This document shows positions 20,347 through 35,361 of a stretch of DNA of 35,361 bases, in pieces. The translations under genes and the position numbers were made by a program. The notes under the pieces were generated by a model. It was not told where the DNA came from. It saw only the letters and a program-made list of their open reading frames with translations, and ran no database searches. Positions within the stretch are counted from its first letter, which is position 1, and every line of letters begins with the position of its first letter. The stretch covers positions 1-35,361 of the IMG/VR virus record IMGVR_UViG_3300045999_010565. One strand, given 5' to 3'. This DNA is from a virus.

Positions 20347-20553
20347 CTACCCGGCGGGTGGCGACGCGTCGAGGGCGTCGACGATGCGCCGGGCCGTCTC
20401 GATCGCGACCTCGATCGTCGCAGACCGCGACGAGATCTCGACGACGTCCTCGGAGGCGCCGCAAAGCGGCGACCAGCGCAGAGTCCAGCGCACGCCGTCG
20501 ACGCGCTCGTACAGCTCGATCGTGCCCCAGGGGCCGAGGGTGTGTGTCGTCAC
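20347..20553 (-). CDS. small hypothetical protein (68 aa)
   Basis: Last gene of the leftward early unit. GTG 20553 overlaps the upstream stop (GTGA). The 68 residues look like a compact beta-beta-alpha protein: WGTIELYERVDGVRW, then SATIEVAIETARRIVDAL. No known family or catalytic motif is recognised. Translational coupling to its upstream neighbour supports expression. Confidence 0.55.
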   Translation of the reverse strand: MTTHTLGPWGTIELYERVDGVRWTLRWSPLCGASEDVVEISSRSATIEVAIETARRIVDALDASPPAG

Positions 20554-21164
20554 GGGTCACCCCCCGGGCGGTGCAGACCCTCCTCGATCGCCTCGGCCGC
20601 GCGGTCGACTGCGAGGGCGCTGGACAGGTGCAGCTCCTGCAGCCGATCCGCCTCACTCCGCAGCCACGCGACGACAGTCGCGCGCTCTCGGATGCGCTCT
20701 GCACGCAGCTCACGTCGCGCGTCCACAACCGCGCCCTCGGCCCGCTCGAGGGCGGCCTCGAGGTTAGCGGCACGGCGACGCGTCGCCGCAGCTCGACGTG
20801 CGGCCGATGTGACCGCCGCGTAGGGCACGGCGCGAGATGCCAGGACGTCCCACACCGCGCGGGCCAGCCCCTCTGCCTCGGCCTGCAGCTCGCGCTGCGC
20901 AGCAGCCTCCAGGTACACGACCAGGTCGACCGCCTCCTGCACCGCGTCGCGGAGATGATCGCGCCCGTTGTCGCGCTGGAGCGGCACGCCGTACCGTGCG
21001 AGGCCCTGCGCCCGGCGCGCGACGTACAGCTCGCGCAGCACAGGGTCTGTCGTGCGCGCGATCACGTCGAGCCAGAGGTCGCCGGTGCCAGGCGTCGGCG
21101 GGGGCTCGGGCTGGAGCGCCGCGAGGGCCTGGAGCTGGGCCCGGTCTTCGTTGGGTGTGGTCAC
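20550..21164 (-). CDS. conserved phage protein with YGVPLQ-NGRD motif
   Basis: The 204-residue protein starts at GTG 21164, overlapping the MazG stop. Residues about 49-76 hold the pattern RYGVPLQRDNGRD followed by DAVQEAVDLVVYL, which I know from many phage hypothetical proteins. It may relate to all-alpha nucleotide-handling folds, but I cannot confirm that. The C-terminal 110 residues are a long Arg/Ala/Glu coiled coil. Adjacency to MazG favours a nucleotide-pool role. Function is unknown. Confidence 0.6.
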   Translation of the reverse strand: MTTPNEDRAQLQALAALQPEPPPTPGTGDLWLDVIARTTDPVLRELYVARRAQGLARYGVPLQRDNGRDHLRDAVQEAVDLVVYLEAAAQRELQAEAEGLARAVWDVLASRAVPYAAVTSAARRAAATRRRAANLEAALERAEGAVVDARRELRAERIRERATVVAWLRSEADRLQELHLSSALAVDRAAEAIEEGLHRPGGDP

Positions 21165-23109: not shown

Positions 23110-23138
23110 ACTCTACGCCGGCGCGATCAAGCGTGCAA
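23110..23138 (-). promoter_or_regulatory. leftward early promoter with operator (site I)
   Basis: Read leftward: TTGCAC (23138-23133), 17-base spacer, TAGAGT (23115-23110). The operator-like GTGCAAGGGCTGCAC at 23133-23147 covers the -35. This promoter should drive the second leftward unit from 23063 to 20347. The -35 is embedded in a larger 37-base palindrome. Confidence 0.65.
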
Positions 23139-23158
23139 GGGCTGCACACTTGATCGCG
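23122..23158. repeat. 37-base palindrome over the promoter -35
   Basis: Arms CGCGATCAAG (23122-23131) and CTTGATCGCG (23149-23158) are perfect reverse complements. Inside them, after one mismatch, GTGCA and TGCAC (23133-23137, 23143-23147) pair around AGGGC. Six Ts follow on the plus strand at 23163-23168. As DNA it is a large operator. As rightward RNA it resembles an intrinsic terminator that would block antisense transcription into the exonuclease unit. Confidence 0.7.
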
Positions 23159-25420: not shown

Positions 25421-26218
25421 TCAGAGGTGGTCGTCTTCGTCGGCGAGCGTGTCGACGCCGGTCTGCTCGATGCCCGGCGCCCACCGCGGGAGCACGAGCG
25501 GGCGCAGCTCAGGTGCAGCCCCCGGCCAGCGGTCCTCAGCCTCGCACTGCGCGAGCACGTCGAGCAGGCCGGCGCGCAGGACCTCGCCCACGTACAGCGC
25601 GGCGTCGAGCTCGAGGGCGTACACGCCGACGTCGTACGGGGGCGCAGCCTCGTACGCGATCACGACGACGCGCTCGACGTACTGCCCGCAGGCGCGCAGT
25701 CCCTCAACGTAGTGTGCGAGCTGGCCGTGGTAGAGCCTGCGCGCCACCTCCACCGCGATTTTGCGAGGCTCGACACTGGGTACGGCCTTGAGGTCGATCA
25801 GCGTGCCCGAGGACGTCAGGCGGTCGATCCGGCCCTTGAGCGCCCGCCCGTGGTCCTCCCACGTCATCGTCAGCTCAGACCAGCCAGGCTCGGCCAGCAG
25901 CGCGCCGGCGACCGGGTGCGCGTGCAGCGCGTCGACGACGCCCTGGATTGTCGCGAAGTCACGAGCCGTCAGCAGGACGCGGTCGCCCGCGGCAGCTTTT
26001 GCGGCGGCAGTCCGTCGACCCTCGGCGAGCTGGTACTGCTCGGCGAAAATCTGCGGCTCCAGGAGCGCGGTGTGCAGCGCGGAAAACAGCGGGTCGCTGT
26101 CGACCGGCGGCGGCGAGCGGAAGTGGAGAGGGGAACGTGCCAGGAGCTTGAGCCGGGACCAATTGAGCCCGGGCAAGCACTGGTACGTCGCGAACGGGAG
26201 GTTGCGGTGCAGCGGCAT
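25421..26218 (-). CDS. PD-(D/E)XK exonuclease (RecE/Cas4-like)
   Basis: The 265-residue protein probably resects double-stranded ends for recombination-dependent replication. Family signs in order: YQCLPGLNWSRLKLLARSPL (about 12-31), LFSALHTALLEP with H49, SELTMTWE near 114, KGRIDRL with D132, LIDLKAV with D142 and K144, and YHGQLAHY with Y163, Q166 and Y170. These form the nuclease core. No four-cysteine iron-sulphur cluster is evident. ATG 26218 lies six bases after the promoter -10, so the mRNA is probably leaderless. First gene of the leftward unit. Confidence 0.85.
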   Translation of the reverse strand: MPLHRNLPFATYQCLPGLNWSRLKLLARSPLHFRSPPPVDSDPLFSALHTALLEPQIFAEQYQLAEGRRTAAAKAAAGDRVLLTARDFATIQGVVDALHAHPVAGALLAEPGWSELTMTWEDHGRALKGRIDRLTSSGTLIDLKAVPSVEPRKIAVEVARRLYHGQLAHYVEGLRACGQYVERVVVIAYEAAPPYDVGVYALELDAALYVGEVLRAGLLDVLAQCEAEDRWPGAAPELRPLVLPRWAPGIEQTGVDTLADEDDHL

Positions 26219-26224
26219 GAAGTC

Positions 26225-26252
26225 CGTGTATCACATGCACGGGGAGCGTCAA
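26225..26252 (-). promoter_or_regulatory. leftward early promoter with operator (site A)
   Basis: Read leftward: TTGACG (26252-26247), 16-base spacer, TACACG (26230-26225), then six bases to the ATG at 26218. The palindrome GTGTATCACATGCAC (26226-26240) covers the -10. It drives the exonuclease unit and predicts a leaderless transcript. Confidence 0.75.
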
Positions 26253-26277
26253 GGTGCGGCAGAGTGCGTCGCGCCGC

Positions 26278-26307
26278 TTGCCCCTCGGGATCGTGTACGG
26301 TATACAC
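26278..26307 (+). promoter_or_regulatory. rightward early promoter with operator (site B)
   Basis: TTGCCC (26278-26283), 17-base spacer, TATACA (26301-26306). The palindrome GTGTACGGTATACAC (26293-26307) covers the -10. It diverges from site A, 52 bases away centre to centre between the two palindromes' regions, so one regulator could control both directions. The mRNA would have a short leader with GGAG before GTG 26330. Confidence 0.8.
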
Positions 26308-26329
26308 GCCCCGTCACCCGGAGTCCCTC

Positions 26330-27466
26330 GTGCGTCTCACTGTCCCCGCCTCACTTGTGCCTGTTCTTCGCGCCGCTGTCTCCCGCCTGACGGCGGTCGC
26401 GCGCGACCTCCCGATCCTCGTCGGGTACACCCGGCCGGACGGCCTCCACCTCCGCGCCTGCGACGGTCGCGCCGTCGACCTCGAGGCGACGATCCGCGGC
26501 GTCGACTGGATCGTGCCGAGCGACACGATCGCCGTGCCGGCCGATTCGCTGGCTCAGGTGCTGGCCGTCGTGCCGCGCGCACAGGATCTGGCAGTGTCGC
26601 TCCGTGGGACGAAGCTGCGCCTCTCGGCCGGCGCGGCGACCTGGGACCTGCGGACCGGCGACGCCTCCCTCGTGCCCCCCGGCGCAGGCCAGGCGCAGCA
26701 GGGATGGACCGTGCGCGTCGTCGCGGCGGACCTGGCGCGCGTGCTGTCCATCGCCCGGCCCAATGTCGGCGACGAGGCGCGGTACGGGCTCAATGGGATC
26801 CACTGCGAGCCCGTGCTGCTCGGGGGCACGGGCGCGGAGGGGCTGCGCCTGGTCGCGACGGATGGGGCCCGGCTGGCGTTCGGCGAGGTCGCCGTCGAGA
26901 CTCAGGGCCAGGACTGGGTCGGCGGTCGCCTCGGGCTCGTGCCTCCCGCCCTGGCCGATCACATCCTCGCGCTTGCCGCCGCAGAGCCCGCTGCGCGCGT
27001 CGTGCTGACGCTGTCCGGCCGGTGGATCGCTGGCGAGGCCGAGGGCGGCGCCTGGCGTGTGTGCGGGCCCGCGATGGACGGCGAATTCCCCGACTACCGT
27101 CAGATCCTCGACGGGATGAAATTCGCATGCGTCGTGCGGGTCCCCCGCAAGGCCCTGTCGGATGCGCTGCGCCGTGCGACGGCGATCTCCCGCGAGGTGG
27201 CGATCGAGGCGCGCGAAGACGAGATCCTGATCTCCGCGACGGACGCAGAGGCCGGCGAGCTGCGGGAGACGGTGGCCGCTGCGGTCGACCGGCCGGACAA
27301 TCTGCCCCGCGGCCTGCGCATCGCGTACCTGGCCGACTGCCTGCGCGTCGTCGAGGCCGACGAGGTGACGGTGAGCCTGGGGAAGTCTCTCGACCCGGTG
27401 CTCGTGTGTGGCCGCGGCGCAGAGCTCGACGGCGAGTGGGTCGTGATGCCCCTGCGGCTCGGGTAG
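26330..27466 (+). CDS. dnaN: DNA polymerase III beta sliding clamp homologue
   Basis: The 378-residue protein has the length and end motifs of bacterial beta clamps. It starts MRLTVPASLVPVLRAAVSRL as in clamp domain 1. GEFPDYRQILDG near the domain 2/3 border matches the family GEFPDYR motif. The C-terminus VVMPLRLG matches the conserved VVMPMRL. Three repeated clamp domains are expected (about 1-125, 126-250, 251-378). A phage-encoded clamp without a phage polymerase suggests hijack of the host replicase. GTG 26330 has GGAG eight bases upstream. It is transcribed from the operator-controlled promoter at 26278. Confidence 0.92.
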   Translation: MRLTVPASLVPVLRAAVSRLTAVARDLPILVGYTRPDGLHLRACDGRAVDLEATIRGVDWIVPSDTIAVPADSLAQVLAVVPRAQDLAVSLRGTKLRLSAGAATWDLRTGDASLVPPGAGQAQQGWTVRVVAADLARVLSIARPNVGDEARYGLNGIHCEPVLLGGTGAEGLRLVATDGARLAFGEVAVETQGQDWVGGRLGLVPPALADHILALAAAEPAARVVLTLSGRWIAGEAEGGAWRVCGPAMDGEFPDYRQILDGMKFACVVRVPRKALSDALRRATAISREVAIEAREDEILISATDAEAGELRETVAAAVDRPDNLPRGLRIAYLADCLRVVEADEVTVSLGKSLDPVLVCGRGAELDGEWVVMPLRLG

Positions 27467-27505: not shown

Positions 27506-27700
27506 GTGCTACCCGTACCCGCCAGCCCCCTTCTCCGCGCGATTCGCACTTCGCGGCTCTCTCAGGCCGAGCTGGCGGCGCGTGCGGGTGTCAGCAAAGC
27601 CACGATCACGCGCATTCTGCGGGAGGGCCGGCCACGGACCCTCCGCGCGGCCGCGGCGCTCGCGGCGGTGCTCGGCCTCGAGCTCGAGGACTGCGCGTGA
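27506..27700 (+). CDS. XRE-type helix-turn-helix regulator (64 aa)
   Basis: The 64-residue protein is a single HTH domain: LSQAELAARAGVSKATITRI is the helix-turn-helix and TLRAAAALAAVLGLEL the following helices. Small XRE proteins are repressors or controllers. It follows the clamp gene by 39 bases, and its stop overlaps the next start (GTGA). The GTG start has only a weak GGA upstream. It is one of two XRE candidates for the protein that binds the early palindromes. Confidence 0.75.
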   Translation: MLPVPASPLLRAIRTSRLSQAELAARAGVSKATITRILREGRPRTLRAAAALAAVLGLELEDCA

Positions 27701-28218
27701 CGTACCCGCACCCGGGGACGTACGTTGGCGTCGACCCCGGCCAGCGTGGCGCGATTGCTCGCGTCACGGTCGACGCGGAGGGGCGTGTCGTCGCGCACCT
27801 GCTGCTGCACGGGCGCGACTACCACGGCCGACAGCTACGGATCGGCCCGTGCGTCGAGGCCCTGCGCGAGGCCGGGGTCGTCGAGGCGGACGGCGTCGCA
27901 GTCGAGGCGCTCGGCCTGCGGCCAGGAGAGGGCGTGCGGGCCACGGCGACGGCCGCGGCCTCGTGGGCGGTGTGGCAGGCGGCCCTCGACCAGCTGCGCG
28001 GGCCCGGCCGATACGCCGTCGTCGACCCGCAGCGCTGGGGGCGCGTCGTCGGCCTTCGCGCGGGCCTGGGACGGCCGATCCGCAAGGCGATGGCCGTGCG
28101 CCTGGCCGCAGAGCTCCTCGGGGCCCGGGCCTGCCTCGTGCCCCCGCGCGGCCGCGAGCCCTCCGACGGCGCGGCAGACGCGGTGCTGCTCGCGTACGCT
28201 TCGGGGCGCGGCTTCTGA
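27697..28218 (+). CDS. RuvC-like Holliday junction resolvase
   Basis: The 173-residue protein has an RNase H-like arrangement: GVDPGQRGAIA with D13, AVEAL with E70, then SDGAADAVLLA with D157 and D161, a close match to RuvC active-site order. The region RPIRKAMAVRLAAELLG before the last motif fits the conserved basic helix. Phage resolvases clear branched DNA before packaging. The GTG start overlaps the stop of the HTH gene. Confidence 0.8.
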   Translation: MTYPHPGTYVGVDPGQRGAIARVTVDAEGRVVAHLLLHGRDYHGRQLRIGPCVEALREAGVVEADGVAVEALGLRPGEGVRATATAAASWAVWQAALDQLRGPGRYAVVDPQRWGRVVGLRAGLGRPIRKAMAVRLAAELLGARACLVPPRGREPSDGAADAVLLAYASGRGF

Positions 28219-28237
28219 GGCTGACGCCGTGCGCCGC

Positions 28238-28266
28238 TTGCACGCCGATCGTGCGCGGGCTACACT
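28238..28266 (+). promoter_or_regulatory. rightward promoter for second XRE gene with degenerate operator (site C)
   Basis: TTGCAC (28238-28243), 17-base spacer, TACACT (28261-28266), then six bases to ATG 28273, giving a leaderless mRNA. GTGCGCGGGCTACAC (28251-28265) fits the early operator with one mismatch in the left half. A weaker site at its own promoter is typical of autoregulation. Confidence 0.75.
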
Positions 28267-28272
28267 GCGGGC

Positions 28273-28503
28273 ATGACCTCCGATCCGCATCCCTCGCCTC
28301 TTTGGCCCGCTGGGTCCCTCCTGCGGGCGGCCCGTGAGGCGCGCCAGCTGACCCAGGAGCAGGTCGCCGGTCTGGCCGGCTGCGACCGCTCGACTCTGGC
28401 TCGCTTGGAAAACGGCGGCGCCCGGCCGTCGCTGTCGACGCTCGCCGCGCTCTGCGACGCGCTCGGGATCGGCCAGCGTGATCGCGGCCGGTTTCTCTGC
28501 TGA
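28273..28503 (+). CDS. leaderless XRE-type controller-like regulator (76 aa)
   Basis: Residues about 15-70 form a full HTH domain: SLLRAAREARQLTQEQVAGL, AGCDRSTLARLENGGARPSL, STLAALCDALGI. Size and leaderless start resemble controller proteins of restriction-modification operons, and a methyltransferase gene follows 263 bases later. There is no upstream ribosome site, and the ATG lies where transcription should begin. This is the best candidate for the regulator of the early palindromic sites, including its own promoter. Confidence 0.85.
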   Translation: MTSDPHPSPLWPAGSLLRAAREARQLTQEQVAGLAGCDRSTLARLENGGARPSLSTLAALCDALGIGQRDRGRFLC

Positions 28504-29338: not shown

Positions 29339-31218
29339 CGCTGCCCCTCCCGCCCGGGCAGACCCCGCGCGCCTGGCAGCTCGAGGCGCTCGCCGCGATC
29401 ACGAGCTCGTGGCGGGCCGGCCTGTCGTCTGTCGTCGTGTCCGCGGCGACGGGCACAGGCAAGGGGTCGCTGCTCGCAGGCCTGGCGCGCCGGGCCGAGG
29501 CGAAGGGGTCGCGGGTGCTGATCCTCGTGCATCGTCGTGAGCTCGTCGAGGATCTCGCGGCCCGCGTCGCGGCAATCCCGGGCCCGCCGCCCGGCATCGT
29601 CCAGGCCCGACGCGACGAGGGCGACCGCGGGATCGTGATCGCGTCGGTGCAGTCCCTGGCGAAGCGGCTCGCCTCGCTGCAGGCGTACGACCTGGTCGTC
29701 ACGGATGAGGCGCATCACGCCGTCGCGCCGACGTACCAGCTTGTGTATCGTGCAGTGGAGGAGGCCCGGCGTCGTGCCGGGAAACCTGACCGGTACGCCC
29801 ATCTCGGCATGACCGCGACGCCGTTTCGCACTGGCGGCGAGGGCGTGTCGCCGATCACGGGCGACGGCGCTCCTTTCCAGGCGATCGCGTACGAGCACGG
29901 CATCACGCAGGCGATCGCGGCGGGCGACCTGGTCCCGCCGCGCGGCACGGCGATCGAGACGCACCTCGACCTGTCCGCGGTGGAGATGCGCGGCGGCGAC
30001 TACGACGAGCGCGGCCTCGAGCGCGTCGTCGACGTCGACGCGCGGAACGCGCACGTCGCGCAGCTCGTCGCCGAGCGCGCTGCGGGCCGGTCCTTTCTCG
30101 CGTTCGCCGTCTCTGTCGCCCACGCTGAGCGCCTCGCCGCGGCGTTTCGCGGCGCCGGCCTGGCCGTCGAGGCGGTGTGGGGGAACATGCCCGCCGACCT
30201 CCGCGCACAGCGGATCGCGGAGTACGCCGCGGGCCGCCTGCAGGGCCTCGTGAGTCGCGACCTGCTCTTCGAAGGCTTCGACTCGCCGCGGACGTCACTC
30301 CTCGTCGCGTGTCGCCCGACGCGATCGCAGATCATCGCCTGGCAGCTCGTCGGCCGCGGCCTGCGACTGTACGCGGGGAAGGTCGACTGCGAGATCCTCG
30401 ACTTCGTCGGGTTTCTGCGCGTGCTCGACTTTGGCAGCGCGCCCGAGGCCGACGAAGCGGATGCGAAGCGCCAGTCGGCGACCCCGTGGGTCTGCGCGGT
30501 CGGCGATCGCGTCGTGCCCCGGTACGCGGAGGGCGACCCGCCCGTCGGCGTCGTCGTCGAGGTCGACGAGCCCGAGGCGCCTGCTTTCGTCCGGGTGCGC
30601 TGGTCTGTCGACAACGTCCGCCAGTGCTCCGTCGCCGACCTGCGACGCGCGCCGCTCGAGGTCGTCGAAGAGGAGGCCGTGCCCGTCGAGGTGCGCGGCC
30701 ACACGTCCTACTCCGTGTCCCTGCTCCCCGGGCAGGACGTCGAGCGGGCCCGGGGATGGTACTCGCCGCGGGCCTCGGAGGGGCGCGCCGAATGGTCGTC
30801 GTACGGGTGGCGCGAAGGCGTGCAGCTCTTCGTCGCGATCGCCCTGCCCGTGTCCCTTGGCTGGACCCTGTGGCGCGTCCGGCTGCCGGCGAATGGCATG
30901 CGCGCGGCCGAGCTCGAGGGCGGGGCGGTGCACGGGGCGGTCGCCCGCAAGATCGCCGACGGGGCAGACCTGCTCGACCTGCAGCGTCAGGCCGAGCGCT
31001 GGCTCGACGGCGAACGGGCGCGCCACCTGCCGGTGACGAGCCCGCCGATGCGCGAGCTCGCGGCCCCGGCCCTGCTCGCGCGCCTTCGGGCGGCAGGCGA
31101 CGTCCCGCCGCCCGACGGCCTGGCGAAGGGCGAAGCCTGGGCCCGGCTGGCACACGCGCAGGGCCGGCGGGCAGTCGAGGACGCGCGGCGCGAGCTGCGG
31201 CGGCGGTTCGTCCGCTAA
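29335..31218 (+). CDS. SF2 DEAH-box helicase with C-terminal extension
   Basis: The 627-residue protein shows Q-motif-like WQLEAL (14-19), Walker A ATGTGKGS (38-45), DEAH (124-127), TAT (160-162) and motif VI QLVGRGLR (337-344). Residues 1-190 and 200-390 are the two RecA-like domains of the UvrB/ResIII type. From about 400 there is a phage-specific extension. It includes a KOW/SH3-like segment (GDRVVPRYAEGDPPVGVVVEV) and a helical tail. No nuclease motif is seen. It probably unwinds DNA or remodels forks. Its stop overlaps the convergent VirE-helicase stop by three bases. Confidence 0.85.
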   Translation: MTLPLPPGQTPRAWQLEALAAITSSWRAGLSSVVVSAATGTGKGSLLAGLARRAEAKGSRVLILVHRRELVEDLAARVAAIPGPPPGIVQARRDEGDRGIVIASVQSLAKRLASLQAYDLVVTDEAHHAVAPTYQLVYRAVEEARRRAGKPDRYAHLGMTATPFRTGGEGVSPITGDGAPFQAIAYEHGITQAIAAGDLVPPRGTAIETHLDLSAVEMRGGDYDERGLERVVDVDARNAHVAQLVAERAAGRSFLAFAVSVAHAERLAAAFRGAGLAVEAVWGNMPADLRAQRIAEYAAGRLQGLVSRDLLFEGFDSPRTSLLVACRPTRSQIIAWQLVGRGLRLYAGKVDCEILDFVGFLRVLDFGSAPEADEADAKRQSATPWVCAVGDRVVPRYAEGDPPVGVVVEVDEPEAPAFVRVRWSVDNVRQCSVADLRRAPLEVVEEEAVPVEVRGHTSYSVSLLPGQDVERARGWYSPRASEGRAEWSSYGWREGVQLFVAIALPVSLGWTLWRVRLPANGMRAAELEGGAVHGAVARKIADGADLLDLQRQAERWLDGERARHLPVTSPPMRELAAPALLARLRAAGDVPPPDGLAKGEAWARLAHAQGRRAVEDARRELRRRFVR

Positions 31219-32903
31219 AGCGCCCGGTGCGTCCCCGGCGGCCAGTATCGCAGGGGCCGCGATCGCAGCGGATGCCCCGGCGGGTAGGGCAGCCAGCCCA
31301 GCGTCCGCAGCGCCTCACCGGCCGTGCGCAGGTCGCGCTCCGTCTGCTGTCCGGCCGGCTTGCCGACGAGGTCCAGGACGTCGAGCGTCGTCATGCTCTC
31401 GGGCAGGGCCCCCTCGGCAGTCAGCGCCTCGAGGTGGAGGGCCAGGCGGTCGACCCACGGGTGATCGAGGTGTCGGAGGTCGATCGCCTCGTGGCGGCGT
31501 TCGTTCTCCAGCTCGGCGGACTTGCTGATCCAGTGCGGCACCTTGGAACGGTACAGGTGCAGTGCCTCGGCCCAGAGCTGGTCGCGGACCGCCGCCACGC
31601 CGGCGGGATCGAGGGGGCGCTGGCACTCGACGAGCCACCAGCGCCGTTTTCCGGCCGGGTCGTCCACCAAGCGTTTGTTTGTCTCGGGGTTGACGGTCGC
31701 TGCGAAGATGCAGCGCCGCGGGATCGTCTCCGGCACTTTGCCGTACGCGAAGCGCGTCGTCTCGACTTCCTGGCTCACCCACCGCCGCAGGTCGCGCATG
31801 TCTGTCGACTTCGCCACCGCGAGCTCGGCCAGCTCGTACAGCCAGGCACGGCGCATCACCTGGATCGCATCGCGCTCGCCGGGGATGATCTTGTCCTCGC
31901 TGTGGAATTCCCGGCCAAAAAGCGCCTTAAATAGCTCCGACTTGCCGGCGCCCATTCCTCCCGCGAGCACGAGCACCCCGTCGGCCTTGCAGCCGGGCTC
32001 GATCACGCGCGCCACGGCCGAGATCATCCACGCGGTGCCGAGCTCGGCGAGGTGGGTGTCCTTCGCCTCTGGCCCGGCGCCGGCGCCGGCGTAGCGCACG
32101 AGCCACTGCGGCAGACGGGGCACGCGGTCCCACGCGGGCAGCGCGTCGAGGTAGTCGCGCACCGGATCAAATTCGCAGCGCGAGGCCACGAATTCGAAGA
32201 CCTGCCCCACCTCGCCGGCGGGCTCGAGGATCTCGTGCTCCCGGGCCCAGGCGTACCGGGCGGCCGTGAGGTCCGCCGCGCTCACCTGCACGACCTCGCG
32301 CCGACCGTGCTCGTCGACCGTCACGCGGCAGGGCAGGCCCGACCGGCTGTTCAGCGCGACGCCCCAGCGAAGGCAGAGCCACTCCAGATTCTCGAGGCGG
32401 CGGGGGCCCTTCGGCGCGCCCCATACGCCGTTCGGGGCCTGCACGGCGTGCGGGAGGACGGCGAGGCCCTCGGGGCAGCCCGCGGCCATTCGCTCTGCCG
32501 CGGTCGTAGCGCGCGTGGCGTCGAGGCCCCACTCGGCCTCGAGGCGGGCCGCGAGGTCGTCGACGTCGGCCGGCCCGAGGAGACGCAGGGACCCCGACGG
32601 ACCCGCAGCGCGTGACGCGGCGCGCGACGTCGCCGCGAGCAGGCGGCGGATCGTCGTCTGGATCGAGGACGCGTGTCGGCGCGTGCCCGTCGCCCGGGCG
32701 TTGGCGGCGAGGGCGGCCTGCACCTGGTCGCTTTTCGCGGCCTCTGTCTCCTCCGGGCTCAGGGTCTGGACCTCGGCGAGCGCCAGGCCGAGCAGGATCA
32801 GCGCGGCCTCAGCCGCTCCTGTGCCCGGCGGCTCTGTCGAGATTGCACGGAGGCGAGCCGTCAGGACGGACGCAGAGGAGGGAGAGGGCGCGGCGGTGCT
32901 CAT
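31215..32903 (-). CDS. VirE-type (virulence-associated E) replicative helicase
   Basis: The 562-residue protein has the VirE core at about residues 245-430: DYLDALPAWDRVPRLPQWLV, a P-loop GGMGAGKS (315-322), an acidic WLYELAEL (354-361), a sensor FAATVN (400-405) and GKRRWW with arginines (418-423). In phages these ATPases act as replicative helicases beside a primase, encoded here just upstream. The N-terminal 240 residues include a helical region and a beta segment. ATG 32903 is seven bases after the -10, so the transcript is probably leaderless; the in-frame TTG at 32939 is part of the -35. Confidence 0.85.
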   Translation of the reverse strand: MSTAAPSPSSASVLTARLRAISTEPPGTGAAEAALILLGLALAEVQTLSPEETEAAKSDQVQAALAANARATGTRRHASSIQTTIRRLLAATSRAASRAAGPSGSLRLLGPADVDDLAARLEAEWGLDATRATTAAERMAAGCPEGLAVLPHAVQAPNGVWGAPKGPRRLENLEWLCLRWGVALNSRSGLPCRVTVDEHGRREVVQVSAADLTAARYAWAREHEILEPAGEVGQVFEFVASRCEFDPVRDYLDALPAWDRVPRLPQWLVRYAGAGAGPEAKDTHLAELGTAWMISAVARVIEPGCKADGVLVLAGGMGAGKSELFKALFGREFHSEDKIIPGERDAIQVMRRAWLYELAELAVAKSTDMRDLRRWVSQEVETTRFAYGKVPETIPRRCIFAATVNPETNKRLVDDPAGKRRWWLVECQRPLDPAGVAAVRDQLWAEALHLYRSKVPHWISKSAELENERRHEAIDLRHLDHPWVDRLALHLEALTAEGALPESMTTLDVLDLVGKPAGQQTERDLRTAGEALRTLGWLPYPPGHPLRSRPLRYWPPGTHRAL

Positions 32904-32910
32904 GGCCCGG

Positions 32911-32939
32911 TGTGTATCGGATGCACGTTGACGGGGCAA
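32911..32939 (-). promoter_or_regulatory. leftward early promoter with operator (site D)
   Basis: Read leftward: TTGCCC (32939-32934), 17-base spacer, TACACA (32916-32911), then seven bases to ATG 32903. The palindrome GTGTATCGGATGCAC (32912-32926) covers the -10. It lies just after the primase gene, giving the helicase an independent, leaderless transcript. Confidence 0.75.
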
Positions 32940-32942
32940 GGG

Positions 32943-34316
32943 TCACGCTCCCGCCGCGGCGATGCCCGCCGCCAGACCGCGCTCGACGTGGCGATCGGCG
33001 TCGCGCAGGCCGTGCCCCGACGCCGCGGATCGGAGCGTGCCCGACGCCGTGCTGAGCGCGAGGTGGCCGGGCGCGACAAGCGCACGCCCGACGAAGAACG
33101 CCGCGTCGAAGATCACGCGGCGGCGCTGGCCCTGCCCGGCCCCGCGCACCCGGCCGGCCATCGTCTCCAGCGCACGAGCTGCGGCGCGCTCCTTCCGGCC
33201 TGCCTGCACCTGCGCCGGGGCGGCGCTCTCCGCGGCGGCGTACGTCCACGCTGCGACGCGGGGCTCGGGGTAGTCCCTCAGCAGCGCGTCGGGATCGAGG
33301 GCCGGCGCGTCGACGTCGGCGCCCGCGTAGAACGCGCCACCGCCGCCCGTCCACACCGCCGGCAGGTAGTACAGGCGCGACGCGTCTTTGCACGCCGGGT
33401 CGACGGACAGGCCCCGTGCGCCGGCCCACCGCGCCCCCGCCGCCCACACCGCGGGCCACTCCTCAGCCGGGACAGGACGCGCGAGGGGCAGCACGAGGCG
33501 GGCCCGCGGCGCCTCCGGGGTGTGGCTGATCGTCGTGTGCCAGACGTGGCGCAGGCCCTGCGCGGCATCCTCGACGACCTCGAGGCTGCCGGCGTCGTCG
33601 AGGTCGGCGACCAGGGCCCACACCGCGGCGACGGTGTCGCGCCGGCGGCGGGCCTCTGCCCCGTCGCGCAGCACGATCGGCAGCCACCCGGCGCAGCTCG
33701 CCTTCGCTGCGGCGAGGTCCGGCGCGTTGACGCGCGGGGCGGTCTGGAGGCGTGCGGCGAGCTTGCGCCACGGCGTGCGCGTCAGCGTGAGGGCCGGGTC
33801 GCGGGCGTGGCGGACCCACGCGACGGGCAGCGCATCCCAGTCGACGGCCGGGCGCCAGGCTGCGGCGTACGCCGCGGCGAGGGCCGGCGGCAGCCAGTCC
33901 CTCGCCTCGTCGGGCAGCGCTGCGGCCTCAGCGGGCCCGACGTCGCGCTCGAGGGCGGCGATGCGAAGGTCCTCGAGCGCCGCGAGCCACTCGTCCTCCG
34001 TCAGCAGGCGCGGGTGCAGCCAGTCCGGGCGGCAGGAGAGGCGGACCCCGGCGAGGTACGAGACGAGGCGGGCGGCCTCGACCGTGACGGGCCCACCGCC
34101 CGACGCGAGCAGTACGACGGCTGTTCCGCTGTCCCCGTCGACGGAGACGCAGACCCCGACGGCAGACTGCCCCGTCTCGTCGGCGAGCTGGACCGCGCGG
34201 TCGACCAGCTCGGCGGGCGGTTCGAACCCGGTCACGGGCTCCCAGTCGTCGAGAACGGGCACAGCGTCGGCATCGGGGAAGGGCCAGAGGGCAGGCATAG
34301 AGGCAAGCGCGTACAT
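32943..34316 (-). CDS. primase-polymerase (archaeo-eukaryotic primase fold)
   Basis: The 457-residue protein likely makes primers for replication with the VirE helicase. The AEP motifs are VWALVADLDD (D238 and D240), TTISHTPEAPRARLVLPL (H265) and SVDPACKDASRLYYLP (D306, R314). The region about 395-457 resembles a primase C-terminal helical domain (RRVIFDAAFFVGRAL, then HVERGLAAGIAAAG). Residues 1-200 are a less conserved N-terminal region with strands and an acidic stretch. ATG 34316 has GGAG five bases upstream; the in-frame ATG at 34349 lies inside the promoter. Confidence 0.8.
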   Translation of the reverse strand: MYALASMPALWPFPDADAVPVLDDWEPVTGFEPPAELVDRAVQLADETGQSAVGVCVSVDGDSGTAVVLLASGGGPVTVEAARLVSYLAGVRLSCRPDWLHPRLLTEDEWLAALEDLRIAALERDVGPAEAAALPDEARDWLPPALAAAYAAAWRPAVDWDALPVAWVRHARDPALTLTRTPWRKLAARLQTAPRVNAPDLAAAKASCAGWLPIVLRDGAEARRRRDTVAAVWALVADLDDAGSLEVVEDAAQGLRHVWHTTISHTPEAPRARLVLPLARPVPAEEWPAVWAAGARWAGARGLSVDPACKDASRLYYLPAVWTGGGGAFYAGADVDAPALDPDALLRDYPEPRVAAWTYAAAESAAPAQVQAGRKERAAARALETMAGRVRGAGQGQRRRVIFDAAFFVGRALVAPGHLALSTASGTLRSAASGHGLRDADRHVERGLAAGIAAAGA

Positions 34317-34332
34317 GGTAGCTCCGGGCTGT

Positions 34333-34365
34333 GTGTATCCTATACACATCGGGGGGTCGGCGCAA
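34333..34365 (-). promoter_or_regulatory. leftward promoter for primase with perfect operator (site E)
   Basis: Read leftward: TTGCGC (34365-34360), 17-base spacer, TAGGAT (34342-34337). The palindrome GTGTATCCTATACAC (34333-34347) is the only copy with perfect six-base arms and spans the -10. The mRNA would have a leader of about 15 bases with a GGAG ribosome site. Confidence 0.7.
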
Positions 34366-34432
34366 CCGGGCGCTGAGGGTCCGCGAAAACCTGCCCCGCT
34401 GGCCGGCCTTGACGCAGCGTGGCGACGGGCGG

Positions 34433-34582
34433 CGGAGACATTGTGTACTAGAATCCTCTCCTCAGATGATAGAAGGGGGGGGTTTACTCAGGGAGGGGGT
34501 CGTGTAGCGTTTGCACGCGATTTCCGGGCCGGCGCCGCGATTCGGACCCCAAAACGCGACCATCTTGTACACAATGTCTCCG
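34433..34582. repeat. 16-bp inverted repeat flanking a central operator
   Basis: CGGAGACATTGTGTAC (34433-34448) and GTACACAATGTCTCCG (34567-34582) are perfect reverse complements, 118 bases apart. Each arm contains an operator-like half-site, GTGTAC or GTACAC, at its inner end. The midpoint (34507.5) nearly coincides with the centre of operator F (34509). The symmetric layout suggests looping or origin function. Confidence 0.7.
34502..34516. promoter_or_regulatory. solitary operator (site F)
   Basis: GTGTAGCGTTTGCAC fits GTGYA-N5-TRCAC exactly but overlaps no recognisable promoter box. It lies at the centre of the inverted repeat at 34433-34582. Confidence 0.55.
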
Positions 34583-34647
34583 GCCCGTCCCGCCGGGCTC
34601 GTCGAGAAGTCCGCCCTGTGGCTGCTTCCGGGCCAGCGTCGCGCCGC

Positions 34648-34682
34648 TTGACGCGCCGGGGTCCGTTGTGTATGTTCTGCAC
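34648..34682 (+). promoter_or_regulatory. rightward promoter for last gene with operator (site G)
   Basis: TTGACG (34648-34653), 17-base spacer, TATGTT (34671-34676), then six bases to ATG 34683, predicting a leaderless mRNA. The palindrome GTGTATGTTCTGCAC (34668-34682) spans the -10 and ends at the start codon. Confidence 0.75.
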
Positions 34683-35264
34683 ATGCCCTGGATCGACGCC
34701 TCAGGCACCGTCACCATCACCCGCGACGCCGCGGCGGCCGCTCCGTGGGAGGTCCTCGACGATGCCTCCGACGAAGGCCTCGACGAGGCGTGGGCCAGTG
34801 ACGACGACGACGAGGTCGGGCCGCTGCTGTCCCAGGCCTGGGGCACGATCGAGGCGTACGGCCCGAGGTCCGCGGAGGCGGTGGCGGCCTGGCTGTCCGT
34901 CGCGGCCTTGCTCGTGCGTGTCCCCTCCGTGTGGCCGGCCGTGTACGGCGCGGGCGCCGAGGGCTGGGTACGGGCGCTCGAGACGGCGCTGCGCGGACCG
35001 GCGACCGCGGTCGCGGCGGGGCAGGTACGCGCGGCCCTGCGGGCAGCCCTGCGGGCCGCGGGTCGGGCAGAGCGGGCCGAGGCCGAGCTCGCCGAGCGCT
35101 CGCAGCCGGCGGGCGTCGTCGACCTGGCACGACTGCGCGCGGCGGCACCCAGTCCCGCGCCCGGGGTTACGGCGCCCCCGTCGATCGCGGTCCGGGGGCC
35201 GGCCGATCGGCGGGTCGGGGCGTGGTCGGCGGCAGTCCGGGCCGCGGCGCGTGGGGGTCGCTGA
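34683..35264 (+). CDS. hypothetical early protein (193 aa)
   Basis: ATG 34683 is placed at the predicted transcription start. The 193-residue protein has an acidic N-terminal region (residues 25-45, DDASDEGLDEAW then DDDDEV). A long helical core follows (about 45-140, with VAAWLSVAALLVRVPSVW and repeated arginine/alanine helices), then a Pro/Ala/Arg-rich tail. No known family is recognised. Own promoter with operator and leaderless start mark it as an early gene. A host-takeover or DNA-binding function is possible but unproven. Confidence 0.6.
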   Translation: MPWIDASGTVTITRDAAAAAPWEVLDDASDEGLDEAWASDDDDEVGPLLSQAWGTIEAYGPRSAEAVAAWLSVAALLVRVPSVWPAVYGAGAEGWVRALETALRGPATAVAAGQVRAALRAALRAAGRAERAEAELAERSQPAGVVDLARLRAAAPSPAPGVTAPPSIAVRGPADRRVGAWSAAVRAAARGGR

Positions 35265-35284
35265 GAATGCGCACGGGGACGGCA

Positions 35285-35313
35285 TTCACGCGAGGCGTGT
35301 ACGTGGATACACG
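35285..35313 (+). promoter_or_regulatory. rightward promoter at the window end with variant operator (site H)
   Basis: TTCACG (35285-35290), 17-base spacer, TACACG (35308-35313). The palindrome GTGTAC-GTGG-ATACAC (35297-35312) has the same half-sites but is one base longer than the others. Transcription would run out of the window; if the molecule is circular or permuted, it would read into the terminase operon. Confidence 0.6.
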
Positions 35314-35361
35314 GGGGGTTGGGGCGTGTACCTGGCCGGACCCCCCCCGGGTGTCTCTCCT

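Follow-up and report, generated by a model that had tools for sequence, protein, structure and literature searches.

An inverted repeat between divergent early promoters as a candidate replication origin of a VapE-encoding phage

The CI systems of lambda and 186 are looping switches at divergent promoters with several operators. In the pLS20 switch, which is controlled by RcoLS20, multiple operators are placed within and around a pair of divergent promoters (PMC4207663). Among replication systems, SaPI Rep and SCCmec Cch2 each use the C-terminal domain for origin recognition (PMC7581432), and RepE binds both inverted repeats at its own promoter and iterons in F-plasmid oriS (PMC13028717).

The window analyzed here is the whole of IMG/VR record IMGVR_UViG_3300045999_010565 (35,361 bases; 73.5% GC; genome mean AT 26.5%). 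An inverted repeat at 34433–34582 lies directly upstream of a primase–VapE gene pair, between the divergent primase and right-end promoters. Judging from sequence comparison, we put the probability at about 50% that this region between the divergent promoters is the replication origin, or the origin core, of a virulent phage. The features of the locus, together with a regulator gene encoded further to the left, are listed below.

28273–28503, plus strand: XRE-type regulator (PHROGs family match), candidate operator-binding protein
31215–32900, minus strand: VapE-like helicase gene, proposed initiator; its own promoter has an operator at 32912–32926
32943–34316, minus strand: primase gene (PHROG DNA primase, E 6e-20)
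34333–34347, no strand: operator GTGTATCCTATACAC, overlapping the −10 element of the primase promoter, which points leftward
34416–34599, no strand: extended imperfect dyad with 37-nt arms, 76% complementary
34433–34452, plus strand: left arm CGGAGACATTGTGTACTAGA, with the GTGTAC half-operator at 34443–34448
34436–34515, no strand: 80-bp window with the highest AT content in the genome (49%), candidate site of unwinding
34502–34516, no strand: central operator-like site GTGTAGCGTTTGCAC, centre 34509, 14.6 bits
34563–34582, minus strand: right arm, reading CGGAGACATTGTGTACAAGA, with the half-operator at 34567–34572 and a weak full-operator score of 10.2
34668–34682, no strand: operator GTGTATGTTCTGCAC, overlapping the −10 element of TTGACG-17-TATGTT, a promoter that points rightward (34648–34676)
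34683–35264, plus strand: rightward gene without an assigned function; its counterpart in L113/L170 shows 98% identity over 127 aa

A first-pass annotation had reported a perfect 16-bp inverted repeat, and this was confirmed: CGGAGACATTGTGTAC (34433–34448) faces GTACACAATGTCTCCG (34567–34582) across an interior of 118 bp. The arms pair at 19 of 20 positions when taken to 34452 and 34563, with AGA/TCT added inward past one mismatch, and GACGGGC/GCCCGTC pair outward past a 2-nt offset. Among perfect inverted repeats spanning up to 300 bp, this one ranked highest in the genome (34.9 bits; next, 27.5), and the best inverted repeat in a small number of second-order Markov shuffles (15) reached 27.6 bits. 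An independent-base estimate gives about 3e-4 such repeats expected per genome by chance. No further copy of the arm motif was found elsewhere in the 35,361-bp genome. The arm 14-mer matched 106 stretches of IMG/VR with one copy each among the matches listed, a count consistent with chance, and the paired-arm pattern had zero matches there. Searches with the primase and the right-end protein yielded no relative spanning the arms, returning only distant primases and L170, which is the same contig as L113 and begins at position 34880 of the present record.

The left part of the genome has close relatives in L113, L114, and L115 (terminase protein 99–100% identical; DNA 96–97%), and no DNA-level match to the right end was found among GenBank phages. 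In L113, positions 1–485 join a match to the right end (34880–35358) to a match to the left end (from 11). Since L113 joins both end matches, the two ends of the record are adjacent, which makes it likely that the record covers the genome from end to end. The record's own sequence at the junction differs from those of L113 and L115. An element near the right end (35297–35331) reads GTGTACGTGGATACAC, one base longer than the operators described below, with GTGTAC again at 35326; its version in L113 is GTGTACGTGGGTACAC.

Five strong palindromes resembling GTGTAY-N3-RTRCAC are present at 26226, 26293, 32912, 34333, and 34668. They score 20.9–27.1 bits with a matrix built from the same five sites, for which the fair scores are the leave-one-out values of 18.0–25.7 bits; sites above 14 bits are expected only about 0.03 times per shuffled genome. 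By eye, each of the five overlaps the −10 element of a promoter of the form TTG...-16/17-TAnnnn. The promoter scan covered the right end only, where it recovered the promoter at 34648–34676; the remaining promoters were identified by eye. Promoters of this early class were seen at 26205–26262, 26260–26335, 28215–28280, 32890–32950, 34310–34380, and 34635–34690, and several appear to be leaderless, with an ATG about 6 nt past the −10. Upstream of both the 26293 and 34668 operators lies GTCGCGCCGCTTG, and GCGCCGCTTG also occurs at 28231. A second small XRE-like helix-turn-helix protein, noted by eye in the early region (27509–27700), is a candidate regulator of the operator family, as is the product of 28273–28503. 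Elsewhere, a long palindrome at 23123–23157, GCGATCAAGCGTGCAAGGGCTGCACACTTGATCGC, contains GTGCA/TGCAC halves and is followed by a T run; it may be a terminator or an operator.

The first-pass annotation had also placed a full operator at the midpoint of the repeat and half-operators at the inner ends of its arms. The central site at 34502 is real and sits 1.5 bp off centre, but at 14.6 bits, against 18.0–25.7 bits for the five strong sites, it is the weakest credible member of the operator family. The half-operators were found as described, GTGTAC being present in both arms, and a shuffled arm would contain a half-site of this type with a probability of 0.016. Scored in the register of the full operator, the right arm reaches 10.2 (a genome is expected to hold about 0.8 sites scoring above 10), and the left arm, at −3.8, holds no full site. 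GTGTA boxes are crowded around the repeat (six in 350 bp; at most four in 200 shuffles), a crowding that is partly the three operators themselves. No convincing promoter was found within the arms. At the repeat centre, a weak TTTACT-16-TAGCGT was seen by eye and was not reported by the scan.

Several properties of the repeat would fit an origin. Its interior includes most of the AT-richest 80-bp window, and the repeat also encloses one of the two AT-richest 150-bp windows of the genome. Intergenic DNA in GC-rich genomes tends to be AT-richer anyway, a point that we count against the origin reading. The earlier suggestion of an origin beside the primase gene gains support from the AT-richest 80 bp, from the presence of primase and VapE, and from inverted iteron clusters in related phages (see below), whereas the GC skew, which had been proposed as a check, was silent: no turning point occurs at the repeat, and the analysis is uninformative. 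DnaA boxes (TTRTCCACA) form no cluster; one box with one mismatch lies at 34565–34573, and the genome holds four against 2.1 expected. A DnaA-dependent origin was rejected, as these boxes are at chance level. No family of three or more direct repeats was detected in 34350–34670, and a word-cluster scan that finds iterons in six relatives yielded none near the replication genes of this phage. The top words of this phage are GC-rich and near the shuffle level, except for CGATCGAG, which occurs in four copies in about 190 bp (20398–20590) and has a cluster score of 19.0 against a maximum of 14.6 in 10 shuffles.

We looked for VapE in 18 virus records reached via terminase or primase and found it in six: G008, G012, G013, G014, and G015, which share the terminase, and G018, which shares the primase. 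The relatives are distant (terminase 31–34% identical; primase 34–39%), and five of these six are far lower in GC (39–44%). In each of the six, short repeats in both orientations, located near VapE, make up the highest-scoring word cluster of the piece analyzed, as judged against 10 shuffles only. The clusters, of iterons of about 8–11 bp, and their repeat words are as follows.

L196:3044–3330, L197:7160–7440, L198:1766–2047, L199:5583–5871, L194:3229–3480, and L195:826–1073: iteron clusters of the six uncultivated records
G013 and G015: words of the TTTCACACGTG type
G008: TGGGATAAA
G018: GTCCCTACC
G012 and G014: GTGTGACA

In G013, G015, and G008, opposed arrays surround a spacer of 192–193 bp that is 69–76% AT. 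The G018 spacer, at about 102 bp, is close in length to the 118 bp of the dyad, and its AT content is 50% within a piece whose GC content is 65%. The boxes of G012 and G014 occur in mixed order, without clean opposed arrays, a point that counts against the origin reading. The G012 cluster is immediately upstream of a gene encoding an 879-aa primase–VapE fusion, and that of G014 is upstream of VapE; the placements in G014 and G015 were judged from match positions. On this comparison, the six clusters look like iteron origins and are candidate replication origins, and the dyad at 34433–34582 is the nearest putative analogue in this phage of the relatives' opposed arrays. The C-terminal region of VapE aligns between this phage and three of the relatives. 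Further differences also count against an origin: the dyad has one element per arm and no direct iterons, compared with several copies per array in the relatives, and it lies upstream of the primase gene, whereas the cluster is downstream of VapE in four of the six (G013, G015, G008, and G018).

If the region is an origin, the two inverted arms would be recognized by an initiator of the phage, for which the VapE-type helicase, acting through its C-terminal domain, is the most plausible candidate, and two initiator assemblies would then face one another across the AT-richest stretch. Strand opening would take place in that stretch, the adjacent primase would lay primers, and a host polymerase would extend them. 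Early transcription would be linked to the origin region through the GTGTA-type operators at its centre and flanks. It is also conceivable, though rather doubtful, that one phage protein reads the GTGTA box both as dimer palindromes over the early −10 elements and as single half-sites in the arms, which would couple origin firing to the shut-down of early genes; the sharing by the arms is a 6-bp resemblance (P about 0.016).

The same operators allow a purely transcriptional reading, which is possible but which we hold with low confidence. An early repressor, perhaps the XRE-type protein of 28273–28503, would occupy the operators at the primase promoter, the centre, and the right end, a loop would silence both divergent promoters, and this regulator or a different one would use the arms as upstream sites. 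An origin and a transcriptional switch are mutually compatible and do not exclude each other. The three full operators (centres 34340, 34509, and 34675) are 169 and 166 bp apart, corresponding to 16.1 and 15.8 helical turns and hence near phase, so a loop among them is possible; the estimated probability of two such near-integral spacings by chance, about 0.16, does not make them rare. The overlap of the operators with −10 elements and the half-sites in the arms also fit regulation, as does the symmetry of the locus: each arm lies 108 bp from the centre of its nearest promoter operator, and the repeat centre (34507.5) is the exact midpoint of the two flanking operator centres, a coincidence noticed after the fact and hence suggestive only. 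For the arms themselves, the first-pass annotation had proposed half-sites about 61–64 bases from the central site, close to six helical turns away, on one face of the DNA and favourable to looping. The distances were reproduced (63.5 and 60.5 bp), but they set a half-site centre against a full-site centre. Compared like with like, half-sites in the same orientation are 59 and 56 bp apart, or 5.6 and 5.3 turns; the arms are thus out of phase with the central site, and the one-face argument fails. Looping from the arms would, moreover, form loops of about 56–59 bp, shorter than the approximately 90 bp given as the usual minimum (PMC4207663). The transcriptional reading is also weakened by the arm dyad, which extends over at least 20 bp with only 6 bp operator-like, and by the score of the left arm as a full operator.

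Other readings concern the dyad itself. On either strand, the 184-nt segment has a more stable fold than any of its 200 shuffles (z −5.7 and −5.0 as RNA; −5.4 as DNA, plus strand), and its pairing goes on past the perfect arms with a bulge, as would be expected if a hairpin closed by the arms acted as a single strand, either as a structured RNA or as a single-strand priming site. The interior alone, however, folds like its shuffles (z −0.5 and +0.1), indicating that the folding signal comes from the arms alone, and the recognized promoters point away from the repeat region. Rfam gave no family at threshold; its sole match, which lies outside the repeat, is at chance level, with 19.8 bits where the gathering score is 60. 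We regard such a hairpin as unlikely, and a structured RNA was rejected because the interior is unstructured relative to shuffles. The inclusion of outer, imperfectly matching flanks in the dyad would suit a relic or mobile feature, that is, an old inverted duplication, a MITE-like insertion, or an invertible segment, but the arm is confined to a single locus in the genome, and IMG/VR holds no paired copy. In addition, no PF00589 or PF00239 match, representing tyrosine and serine recombinases, was found anywhere in the phage genome; a host enzyme could serve instead. An invertible promoter segment was rejected on the lack of such a recombinase, and a relic or mobile origin of the dyad is very improbable overall. 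The absence of a recombinase is consistent with a virulent phage.

Compared with the described systems, the locus resembles the RcoLS20 switch of pLS20 (PMC4207663) in having a divergent pair of promoters with multiple operators inside and around it; it differs in that the arm half-operators are out of phase with the centre, the repressor is only a candidate, and no integrase was found. With F-plasmid oriS and RepE it may share the use of a single half-site in promoter palindromes and at the origin, although here this is a 6-bp resemblance and iterons are absent (PMC13028717). The closest parallel to the proposed origin is in SaPI Rep and SCCmec Cch2. Their repeats lie directly downstream of the helicase gene, whereas the dyad is upstream of the primase gene and has one inverted element per arm without direct iterons; the C-terminal part of the helicase can be aligned among the phage relatives, and its binding to the arms is a candidate function (PMC7581432). 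If the origin reading is correct, a phage group that is nearly without relatives in GenBank would have an origin of compact form: each side would be reduced to a single inverted element, in place of the iteron arrays seen in related phages, and the origin and the early operators would perhaps share a half-site. Apart from this, the six candidate iteron origins are of use for learning where replication may start in VapE-encoding phages. As in the SaPI and SCCmec elements, an initiator-type helicase and a primase are encoded beside a noncoding repeat region that is locally AT-rich (PMC7581432).
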